Of a stretch of DNA of 64,000 nucleotides, positions 13,844-58,811 are shown piece after piece. Origin of the DNA: Bacteroidales bacterium (GTDB taxonomy: Bacteria; Bacteroidota; Bacteroidia; Bacteroidales; WCHB1-69); contig JAFPVR010000064.1 in assembly GCA_017395245.1 (NCBI GenBank), forward strand, positions 28,449 to 92,448, in the 5' to 3' direction. Position numbers and translations under genes: made by a program. The notes under the pieces are model-generated. The model had not been told where the DNA came from and did not search any database. It saw only the letters and a program-made list of their open reading frames with translations. Each line of letters starts with the position of its first letter. Position 1 is the stretch's first letter.

Positions 13844-15040
13844 ATGATGTTCACCGACTATGTGCTCTTTTTCGAGATTCTGCTGTTCACGCTGCTTTTC
13901 GCAGGATGCCGCTCACTTTTTCGGAAAGAAGGACTCAACCATATCCTGCTGCTCGGTGGCAATGTCTTGATACTGACGCATATAGTTTCTCCAAAGTCGC
14001 TCTTTCTGCTCTTCATCGTGGCACTGTTGGCCTACGGCGCGGGGCTGCTTTTGCGGAAACGGCACTCGGGCATACTGCTCGCGATAACCCTCACGCTGTT
14101 GATTCTCTTCTTTGCCGTCCGCAACTATCCGCTTGTGCAGTCGTGGCTTGGCAGCTGGTGGACCGACACCCTTGGCAAGCATTTTCTCTCGGTGGAGAAA
14201 ATAGGGCTTTCCTACATCCTTTTTCGTGTAATTCATTGGTTAGTTGAAAGTTATCGTGGTACGCTCCGTACCCGAAACTTCTTGGCATACGTCAACTACC
14301 TCTTCTTTTTCCCCACCTTTATGGCGGGACCTATTGACACGCTCAACAACTTTCACTATTGGATGTCGCACACGCATGTACGCCTCAATGTGCGGCGTAT
14401 GCTCGCGGGTGTCGGCCGTATCTTCTACGGCGCGGTTAAAACGCTACTTGTTGTCCCGCTGATAAAACCGTATGCGGTTGATTACCAGATGCTTATTCCG
14501 ATATTTGGGCCGTGGGGCGCTGTCTGCTCCGCCGCGCTGCTTTACTCATTCTACATCTACATCGACTTTTCCGGCTATTGCGACATCGCCATCGGGATGG
14601 GCGGCATGCTTGGGGTGCGCGTGCCCGAGAACTTCAACCGCCCTTACCTTTCGGATAATATTTCCGAATTTTGGAAACGTTGGCACATCACATTCTCCAC
14701 ATTCTTAAGGATTTACGTCTTCAAGCCCGTCATTGCGCTGCTCAACCGAACCTTTTTGCGGGAATATCGGATGGTGGTGTCGGTGACGGCCTATATGGTC
14801 ACCTTCCTCGTCTGCGGTCTCTGGCACGGCAGCACGTTGAATTTCGTGTTCTGGGGGCTGTGGCACGGATTAGGACTCTCTGTCTATAAGCTGTTTATAC
14901 ATAACAGAATGCCGAAAACGCCTACTTTGGTTCGAAAAATTTCCGCCACACTGTTCACATTTCTCTTCGTGACCGTCGGGTGGGTGTTTTTCAACTATCC
15001 TGTTGATAAATTGTTGATAATGTTTAAGTTGTTGTTCTGA
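13844..15040 (+). CDS. MBOAT family O-acyltransferase (DltB/AlgI-like)
   Basis: A 398-residue integral membrane acyltransferase with about ten membrane segments. MBOAT marks are clear: IDFSGYCDIAIGMG (about 248-261), the PENFNRPY and FWKRWHITFS block, and the invariant His in GLWHGSTLNFVFWGLWHG. Family members move acyl groups across the membrane onto extracytoplasmic polymers (D-alanine in DltB, acetate in AlgI). Start chosen at ATG 13844, after the promoter box. The TGA stop shares one base with the ATG of the next gene, so the two are coupled. The acyl donor is unknown, and no dltA or dltC is present nearby. Confidence 0.9.
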   Translation: MMFTDYVLFFEILLFTLLFAGCRSLFRKEGLNHILLLGGNVLILTHIVSPKSLFLLFIVALLAYGAGLLLRKRHSGILLAITLTLLILFFAVRNYPLVQSWLGSWWTDTLGKHFLSVEKIGLSYILFRVIHWLVESYRGTLRTRNFLAYVNYLFFFPTFMAGPIDTLNNFHYWMSHTHVRLNVRRMLAGVGRIFYGAVKTLLVVPLIKPYAVDYQMLIPIFGPWGAVCSAALLYSFYIYIDFSGYCDIAIGMGGMLGVRVPENFNRPYLSDNISEFWKRWHITFSTFLRIYVFKPVIALLNRTFLREYRMVVSVTAYMVTFLVCGLWHGSTLNFVFWGLWHGLGLSVYKLFIHNRMPKTPTLVRKISATLFTFLFVTVGWVFFNYPVDKLLIMFKLLF

Positions 15041-16158
15041 TGAAAGAGGTTTACCGGTTGAGATTTCTGGCCCGGATAGGGGTCGTGGTGATGGTTGCCG
15101 TTGCCTTCTGGCTCGTTGTTGCGCGGTTCATCCCGACGTTCCACGCTCCGCAGTGCCCGGAATGGGAAGGGCAGCTTTATACCATCCGCCACCAAGACCT
15201 TCGCGACAACAACCCGCTCTATACCAATCTGTTGCTGACAAGTGTAAAACGAAACGATGGCTGGTTGGTGCTGGGCACGTCAGAGACGAATGCGCGACCC
15301 AACGGCAACTATTACGACTTCCTGAACACCGACACAGCACTTCGGTGCGGATTTTCGGTCATCGCAGGCGCGGGCCGCACAGCCTGCACCTACTTCCCAC
15401 TGATTCAGAGTAATGAAAACGTTCGCGGGCTCAAGGTCCTCTTCTTCCTTAACCCCTCCTACGGTTGCGGAAAGCTTGCCTACAGCAATGAGGACTACTT
15501 TTCCCGCTACGTCTCGTCAGCCGTCTGTCGGGAAGTCAACCGTCCTGTGAATGAGGATGTTGAACGTATTCTGCAGGCGAATCTGTCGAAGCTGAACTGG
15601 GGTGTCAGGGTAGGGGAGTGGCTGGCTTGCCATACCGACCGCCTGCGTCGCAAGTATTCCCAGGATCTTGCTTTCTCACTCAATCCCAGCAAGTTCGGGG
15701 AAACACTGACTTGGCTCGACTCGGCCATGGTGTCTCGCCTTCCCGACAGTTGTGCCCGCCCCGACAGCAGCCGTTACAATTACGAGCTGAATGTAGGAGC
15801 CTCCTTCGACGTGCATTCCTACAAACTCAGGCCGCATCCCGAGTCGTCCTATCGCGCCGACGAGTTGCGCACGATGATACGGCTTTGCAAGGCTCGGGGC
15901 GTGGACATCGTCTACATAGCCGGACCCTACAACGAAATCGCGTACCGCAAGGTTTATCCGCAGGATCTGCCTGATATACAGCAGGTTTCAGCAGAGATAT
16001 TGAAAGTCTTGGACGAGGAGGGCGCCGCATATATCGATTGCACGGATCTTTCCGCAGAGCCGGGTGTCTTCGCCGATTGGCAGCACCATACGAGCTACGG
16101 TGCGTATCGTATCTATCAGAAAATCAAGAATTATGTTTTGGAAAAGGAAAACCGTTAA
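15040..16158 (+). CDS. DltD-like SGNH-type acyl-transfer partner protein
   Basis: A 372-residue protein with one N-terminal membrane anchor (about 11-28) and a large periplasmic domain. A GTSET motif (about residues 81-85) corresponds to the catalytic serine block of DltD/SGNH proteins, and the late WQHHTSYGA contains candidate catalytic His (with Asp upstream, FADWQHH). DltD works with the MBOAT protein DltB in D-alanylation. The one-base overlap with the MBOAT gene strongly suggests the same partnership here. A 39-codon gene starts inside its 3' end. The natural substrate polymer is unknown. Confidence 0.75.
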   Translation: MKEVYRLRFLARIGVVVMVAVAFWLVVARFIPTFHAPQCPEWEGQLYTIRHQDLRDNNPLYTNLLLTSVKRNDGWLVLGTSETNARPNGNYYDFLNTDTALRCGFSVIAGAGRTACTYFPLIQSNENVRGLKVLFFLNPSYGCGKLAYSNEDYFSRYVSSAVCREVNRPVNEDVERILQANLSKLNWGVRVGEWLACHTDRLRRKYSQDLAFSLNPSKFGETLTWLDSAMVSRLPDSCARPDSSRYNYELNVGASFDVHSYKLRPHPESSYRADELRTMIRLCKARGVDIVYIAGPYNEIAYRKVYPQDLPDIQQVSAEILKVLDEEGAAYIDCTDLSAEPGVFADWQHHTSYGAYRIYQKIKNYVLEKENR

Positions 16159-16252
16159 GGTCTTGGTGGTGGTTGCCGTCTTCGCGCTGGTGCTGCTGTT
16201 GCTGATGCATCGCGTGGAGGGCGACATTTCATGCCTGTATACAACATTCTAA
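16133..16252 (+). CDS. DltX-like membrane microprotein ending Y-T-T-F
   Basis: A 39-residue protein: basic start MFWKRKTVK, one membrane segment (VLVVVAVFALVLLLLM, about 10-25), then a short tail ending DISCLYTTF. It overlaps the DltD-like gene by 26 bases in another frame. Topology by the positive-inside rule puts the tail in the periplasm. DltX, the small protein of dlt operons, has the same size, topology and C-terminal Y-x-x-F-COOH, whose Tyr is reported to carry the acyl group between DltB and DltD. The match of position, size and terminus supports the same role. Function here is inference. Confidence 0.65.
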   Translation: MFWKRKTVKVLVVVAVFALVLLLLMHRVEGDISCLYTTF

Positions 16253-16253
16253 T

Positions 16254-16335
16254 GTAGAGACGTGGTGCACCGCGTTTCTACCTTAAATTGTGGTGCACCG
16301 CGTCTCTACATTGAATCGTGGCACATCGCGTCCTT
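16254..16335. repeat. Cluster of GTAGAGACG palindromes (one full, two partial)
   Basis: Full unit 16254-16281 with core TGGTGCACCG and one changed base in the right arm. A right half with the same core is at 16289-16309, and a decayed half (GTGGCACATCGCGTCCT) follows to about 16335. After these come four near-copies of TTTCCGC in 16350-16387. Confidence 0.85.
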
Positions 16336-58783: not shown

Positions 58784-58811
58784 GTAGAGACGTGGTGCAC
58801 CGCGTCTCTAC
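58784..58811. repeat. 28-bp GTAGAGACG palindrome
   Basis: Intact arms and core TGGTGCACCG, the same core as the copy at 16254. Confidence 0.92.

Follow-up and report, generated by a model that had tools for sequence, protein, structure and literature searches.

The closest described relatives of the locus reported here are the Dlt system of Bacillota, which comprises DltB, DltD and DltX together with DltA and DltC, and the systems of the PatA-PatB and AlgI-AlgJ/X type, in which a membrane-bound O-acyltransferase (MBOAT) is paired with an SGNH protein. A C-terminal FXYXXF acyl shuttle has been published for both, as a separate protein in DltX and fused to the MBOAT in PatA (available parts of PMC12148441 and PMC11035591). 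Acylation of the tyrosine in this motif was shown experimentally for PatA and, in the accessible text of PMC12148441, is reported for DltX; the same part of this 2025 account describes non-Dlt MBOAT/SGNH pathways as lacking a DltX-like microprotein and carrying the motif on the MBOAT. According to the sections at hand of PMC5541007, dlt genes occur in a few Gram-negative bacteria, where DltX is alike in topology but shows no sequence similarity, and dltX is often overlooked owing to its small size. A Gram-negative DltX as such is therefore not new. No report of a DltX-like protein in Bacteroidota was found among the literature matches listed, which were covered by titles and abstract openings and included few subscription journals. 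Here, a three-gene cassette is described in a gut-type Bacteroidales bacterium (assembly GCA_017395245.1), within a 64,000-nucleotide stretch, hereafter the window, of contig JAFPVR010000064.1 (positions 28,449 to 92,448). It encodes a DltB-like MBOAT, a DltD-like SGNH acyltransferase and a DltX-type microprotein, and is likely to be an acyl-export relay of the DltB-DltD-DltX type, probably fed by acyl-coenzyme A (acyl-CoA), that acylates an envelope polymer.

All three genes are on the forward strand. The MBOAT gene (13844–15040) encodes 398 residues and ends with a TGA stop codon at 15038–15040, of which base 15040 is also the first base of the ATG of the DltD-like gene (15040–16158, 372 residues). 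The microprotein gene (16133–16252) encodes 39 residues (MFWKRKTVKVLVVVAVFALVLLLLMHRVEGDISCLYTTF) with one membrane helix and the C-terminus DISCLYTTF, and begins inside the DltD-like gene, which it overlaps by 26 nucleotides (16133–16158). An initial annotation of this DNA had proposed that the stop of the MBOAT gene overlaps the start of the DltD-like gene and that a 39-codon gene starts within the latter; both points are correct, as are the coordinates and sequence it gave.

Related loci were gathered from several samples. A search of 40 genomes, including that of the window, with the DltD-like protein gave 13 matches, all from one genus. Of the 23 other genomes of this genus, 12 have the gene, and all 12 have a 39-residue open reading frame (ORF) with the same 26-nucleotide overlap. 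Eight of 393 genomes sampled from the order matched, the window's own among them, and the other seven all carry the small ORF; with the window's genus counted, these eight represent five genera. In a phylum sample of 395 genomes, for which the first alignment was used, the window's genome was the sole match. Named genome contigs scanned with a wider DltD-like alignment yielded 36 loci, many in the same genomes as those of the genus and order samples, from Bacteroidales (many from rumen), Flavobacteriales and other Bacteroidota; judged by record title, all of their carriers are metagenome-derived or uncultured. Neighbouring gene families present in at least four of the 36 loci were found only among near relatives and in at most six loci, and no neighbour family occurs in more than three of 14 stretches compared, some reaching three. 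If donor and acceptor are general constituents of the cell, neighbours common only to near relatives are what one would expect.

The search for small genes beside MBOAT/DltD-like pairs in Bacteroidota, which the initial annotation had suggested, found a small ORF overlapping the DltD-like stop codon in all 36 named loci. It starts before that stop codon in every case, with an overlap of exactly 26 nucleotides in 22, and ORFs ending in Tyr-x-x-hydrophobic are found at this position in 35. As a background rate, 2 of 2011 other ATG-initiated ORFs of 30–60 residues in the same loci end in YxxF. Coding was tested in 23 members with the same overlap, in which 30 of the 39 codons lie wholly past the DltD-like stop codon, so that the gene overlap does not confound the test. 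Over these 30 codons, the ratio of nonsynonymous to synonymous differences (pN/pS) is 0.35 for all 253 pairs and 0.34 for 49 close pairs, and over the last nine codons (31–39) it falls to 0.08 and 0.04, respectively; most pairs approach saturation at silent sites, and these values should therefore be read as upper guides and not as estimates. At codon positions 1, 2 and 3, identity amounts to 0.68, 0.80 and 0.44, compared with 0.27, 0.29 and 0.27 in the downstream DNA. An ungapped comparison gives an identity of 0.64 for the coding part and of 0.27, about the chance level, for the 90 nucleotides past the stop codon; in a gapped alignment it drops from 0.64 before the stop codon to 0.13 after it. 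Judged by these comparisons, the microprotein is under purifying selection that is strongest at the end motif and ends at the stop codon. The outcomes that the initial annotation had named as refuting its proposal, namely a frame or YxxF end that is not conserved, or selection on the DltD-like frame alone, were not observed, as 36 of 37 members end in YxxF and pN/pS past the overlap is 0.34–0.35.

In the 37 microproteins (36 named loci and the window), the tyrosine at position −4 is invariant and the final phenylalanine is present in 36. The tyrosine corresponds to Tyr36 of the window's microprotein (codon 16238–16240), the proposed acyl carrier. In every one of the 37, the flank N-terminal to the hydrophobic stretch has the higher net charge, the pattern of a helix with its N-terminus inside and its C-terminus outside. 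Size, hydrophobic stretch and charge pattern fit a DltX-type shuttle in all members. The match to the Y-x-x-F end of DltX that the initial annotation had noted holds; at the first position of the hexapeptide, the Phe of DltX is replaced by Cys, Tyr or Thr in 37 of 37. The MBOAT and DltD-like genes of one genome (G016; L012, L018 and L061) are frameshifted in the assembly, and the microprotein frame is intact. Searches of NCBIfam with the microproteins gave just weak matches to unrelated families, and a sequence search of the PDB with their profile gave one match that was judged to be chance. An inverted repeat of 21 nucleotides (95% complementary; arms 16251–16271 and 16292–16312), which we take to be REP-like, starts at the stop codon of the microprotein gene, and its GTGGTGCACCGCGTYTCTAC unit is found again at 58784–58811 of the window.

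Profile matches and predicted folds support a DltB/DltD-like identity of the other two proteins, as the initial annotation had it. The MBOAT scored 94 bits against PF03062 and 185 bits over residues 8–383 against the dltB model TIGR04091, whose equivalog cut-off of 375 was not reached. Its family profile matched only two PDB sequences at E≤0.001, both DltB, and hhalign against three lactobacillar DltB sequences gave an E of 8e-40. The AlphaFold model (25 sequences; mean predicted local distance difference test score, pLDDT, 86.8) has DltB chains as its first three matches in a fold search of the PDB, with a best E of 3.5e-13 and a template modelling (TM) score of 0.77. His281 (codon 14684–14686) and His328 (14825–14827) align with DltB His289 and the catalytic His336, and are present in all 31 cassette MBOATs that were aligned. 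This residue alignment omits six of the 37 loci, which were frameshifted, partial, overlong or lacking an ORF. The cassette MBOATs form one clade, apart from the sampled DltB and fused MBOATs (support 99/97, and 100/99 in a second tree).

The DltD-like protein, for which we infer one N-terminal helix followed by a periplasmic domain, scored 26.1 bits against PF04914 (cut-off 22.7) and 21 bits against the DltD equivalog model, short of its cut-off of 150. A PDB sequence search with its profile found nothing at E≤0.1. The AlphaFold model (29 sequences, pLDDT 91.2) was matched by Foldseek first to 12 DltD chains from four PDB entries, with a best E of 1.4e-8. Ser81 (codon 15280–15282), the predicted nucleophile in an LGTSE motif, is conserved in the 29 aligned sequences of 37 known, and Asp346 and His349 of the DxQH block (16075–16086) in all 28 that are readable there; the remaining one, L061, is unreadable at both residues because of a frameshift in its assembly.

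The MBOAT of the window ends in MFKLLF and carries no fused FxYxxF motif. By PF03062, its genome encodes four MBOATs, of which the other three end in FIYFRF, FIYFQF and FIYFQF. A YxxF C-terminus was found in none of the 34 readable cassette MBOATs, which therefore do not have the PatA-type fused motif; the frameshifted L061, as well as L079 and L089, which have no readable ORF, were not counted. For comparison, 18 control loci were picked by hand out of 136 plasmid records matching the MBOAT. Twelve of the 18 have an MBOAT with the fused motif, and one more MBOAT ends in FLYYRY. Three of the five loci without a fused motif have a separate small motif protein (L092, annotated as DltX; L145; and L093, from a Chloroflexota plasmid), and in the stretches examined of the two lactobacillar DltB loci no small motif protein was found. 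In another plasmid (NC_017957.2, Tistrella mobilis pTM1, L146:804–3526), an annotated DUF5989 protein ending in SPFLYAVF is found near a GDSL protein and an MBOAT with a fused FFYFDF, and DUF5989 may be another separate shuttle family.

The initial annotation had remarked that no dltA or dltC is in view. This extends to the whole genome of the window, where, at curated cut-offs, dltC has no match at E≤0.001 and DltA none above cut-off. None of 19 other carrier genomes has a match over the cut-off for DltA or DltC, and all 19 have adenylation proteins scoring below the DltA cut-off. One of these 19, the distant carrier G443, is an exception to the remark, in that it has a complete dlt-like operon, scoring below cut-off, besides the cassette. 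The residues through which DltB contacts DltC are described in the available part of PMC11035591. At these positions in 31 of 31 cassette MBOATs, M302 is replaced by Lys, M309 by Asn, and K312 by a residue that is neither Lys nor Arg; V305 is mostly Ile. Asn at the M309 position is also found in six of seven fused MBOATs. The missing DltA and DltC, the changed DltC contacts and the lack of widely shared neighbours favour acyl-CoA as the donor, as in PatA (PMC12148441, in the part available), and this donor is somewhat more likely than not.

A number of observations weigh against a relay of the DltB-DltD-DltX type. The residue at −6 is Cys in 24, Tyr in 11 and Thr in 2 of the 37 microproteins and never the first Phe of FXYXXF, the Cys, two residues before the Tyr, being that of the window's clade; in L075 the ORF is present, with the C-terminus SCRYTSC, so that the final Phe is lost. 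The Pfam DltX family PF12459 was not reached at its cut-off of 25 bits, with five of 37 microproteins matching at E≤10 and a best score of 18.2 bits, as against 72.6 bits for one lactobacillar DltX; hhalign of the microproteins against two DltX sequences was weak and uninformative (probability 16%). The DltD-like protein reached 53% (E 1.4e-4) in hhalign against three lactobacillar DltD sequences, and its fold matches have TM scores of 0.46–0.55 at root-mean-square deviations of 8.7–10.2. Both MBOAT trees are unrooted and have long branches, and the cassette is patchy, being carried by about half of the other genomes in its genus and by 1 of 395 (its own) in the phylum sample. A microprotein that serves only as a structural tether or assembly factor, with the MBOAT handing its acyl group straight on to the Ser of the DltD-like protein or a lipid carrier, would fit the incomplete hexapeptide, and the acyl-Tyr is here predicted, not observed. 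Such a role is nevertheless very improbable in view of the tyrosine that is invariant in 37 of 37, of a pN/pS that is lower in the last nine codons (0.04–0.08) than in the post-overlap part as a whole (0.34–0.35), and of the control set, where 12 of 18 loci have the same motif as part of the MBOAT. That the small ORF is no gene at all is scarcely credible: its shortness, its overlap with the DltD-like gene and, for the window's microprotein, the lack of any Pfam or NCBIfam match at E≤1 would fit, but frame, length, end motif and codon-position pattern are all conserved, while the downstream DNA is not.

Further points against the proposed relay concern its donor. Weak dltC matches are present in 3 of the 19 other carriers (21.6–28.6 bits, cut-off 52.35), R317 of the DltC contacts is kept as Arg in 29 of 31 cassette MBOATs, and M309 and R317 vary also among the three lactobacillar DltB rows. 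G443 carries both the cassette and its own dltC-D-X-B-A-like operon (L147:3125–7376, contig C250), with a carrier at 19.5 bits against PF00550 (cut-off 20.8), a DltD at 141.6 bits against PF04914, a DltB-like MBOAT at 232 of 375 bits, a DltA-like ligase at 433 of 560 bits, and a 49-residue microprotein that ends in EFVYQQF and whose start overlaps the DltD-like stop. G616 (L052:6406–9140) has a 600-residue adenylation-carrier didomain protein just downstream of the cassette. These two cases make a carrier-protein donor possible in some carriers, and they lend support to an acyl or aminoacyl donor that is a carrier protein loaded in trans, with an adenylating enzyme and carrier elsewhere replacing DltA and DltC. 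In the window's own genome, contig C77 has an AMP-ligase adjoining a 79-residue carrier protein, and within the genus, the window's own genome uncounted, this ligase (E≤1e-60) is found in 11 of 13 genomes with the cassette and in 1 of 13 without it (Fisher p 2e-4); it tracks the cassette in three to four of five independent pairs and runs opposite to it in none. A carrier loaded in trans, the main rival reading, is all the same unlikely. The phylogeny-aware pairs test gives a median p of 0.125, the limit of what so few pairs allow; the C77 ligase belongs to a generic acyl-CoA-ligase type (with 200.6 bits as its highest NCBIfam score, cut-off 476), adjoins a GNAT-like gene in 11 of 12 relatives compared, and has no match at E≤1e-60 in carriers G014, G022, G599, G562, G443, G616 and G700; and the DltC-contact residues are replaced in the cassette MBOATs. 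The C77 ligase-carrier-GNAT module was rejected as the donor source, and more likely belongs to another pathway, on the grounds of the p of 0.125, its own GNAT-like gene and the context in G013 and G020, where about 8 kb separates the ligase from proteins that contain adenylation domains and are about 2430 codons long. The C77 stretch (L039:3806–8741) encodes the AMP-ligase, the 79-residue carrier, the GNAT-like protein and two further genes, and ligase, carrier and GNAT-like gene occur together in 11 of 12 relatives, mostly at about 90% identity. A lipid A acyltransferase-like protein is also encoded just downstream of the G616 cassette, and for G700, which belongs to the same genus as G616, the large ORF that follows the cassette is a different one.

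The cassette shares with the Dlt system of Bacillota a DltB-type MBOAT without a fused motif, an SGNH partner of DltD fold and a one-helix microprotein with an outward Y-x-x-F. It differs in its Gram-negative host, in the lack of DltA and DltC at cut-off in the window's genome, in the residue at −6, in its separate MBOAT clade and in the replaced DltC contacts; moreover, X follows and overlaps D in the cassette, whereas in Dlt it precedes dltA. By its lack of recognisable loading genes and by its DltC contacts, the cassette falls outside the Dlt system, and its microprotein stays below the PF12459 cut-off; both His residues, the Ser and the Asp-x-x-His are present. With the fused systems of the PatA-PatB and AlgI-AlgJ/X type it shares the acyl-Tyr motif, an SGNH partner and the Asn at the DltB M309 position; these carry the motif on the MBOAT C-terminus, whereas the cassette has a separate protein and, by Foldseek, an SGNH partner of DltD fold. 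The G443 operon resembles the cassette in the overlap of the microprotein start with the DltD-like stop, an arrangement that is therefore common to the cassette and a dlt-like operon. It differs in its DltA-like gene, its weak carrier gene and its MBOAT, which groups with DltB (100/96), the cassette MBOATs remaining one clade (100/99). If the bin is clean, G443 runs both systems, which would argue against the cassette being simply Dlt. The operon's MBOAT has Asn where DltB has the catalytic His336. The Chloroflexota plasmid (AP024711.1, Leptolinea sp., L093:2807–4406) likewise has a separate motif protein, of 47 residues ending in WIYQGF, an MBOAT without a fused motif, and no dlt gene annotated in the stretch examined. 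In contrast to the cassette, its X is 4 nucleotides before the MBOAT, no SGNH gene is annotated in that stretch, and its placement in the tree is unsure (long branch).

For the self-contained three-gene relay proposed here, the microprotein very probably works like DltX. A cytosolic thioester, of which acetyl-CoA or a different acyl-CoA is the likeliest, would supply the MBOAT with an acyl group, which His328, with His281, would place on Tyr36 of the microprotein, near the outward-facing C-terminus. The microprotein helix would hold the MBOAT and the DltD-like protein together, and its tail would swing the acyl-Tyr36 to Ser81 of the DltD-like enzyme, which would then move the acyl group onto a hydroxyl group of a glycan or lipid in the envelope. 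Both the acyl-Tyr36 chemistry and the three-protein complex are inferred by homology with PatA and DltX. More tentatively, the cassette might represent a third architecture of transmembrane acylation, in which the trio has been freed from DltA and DltC, runs on acyl-CoA, moves alone among Bacteroidota and modifies a non-teichoic polymer; the Cys of the window's clade (24 of 37) could then be a second thioester carrier or tune release.

The cassette is a conserved Gram-negative counter-example to the 2025 statement on non-Dlt pathways, as worded in the available part of PMC12148441. Being a trio without recognisable loading genes, it offers a compact test-bed for the role of a separate shuttle and for the choice of donor, and suggests that Bacteroidota have an envelope modification not yet recognised.

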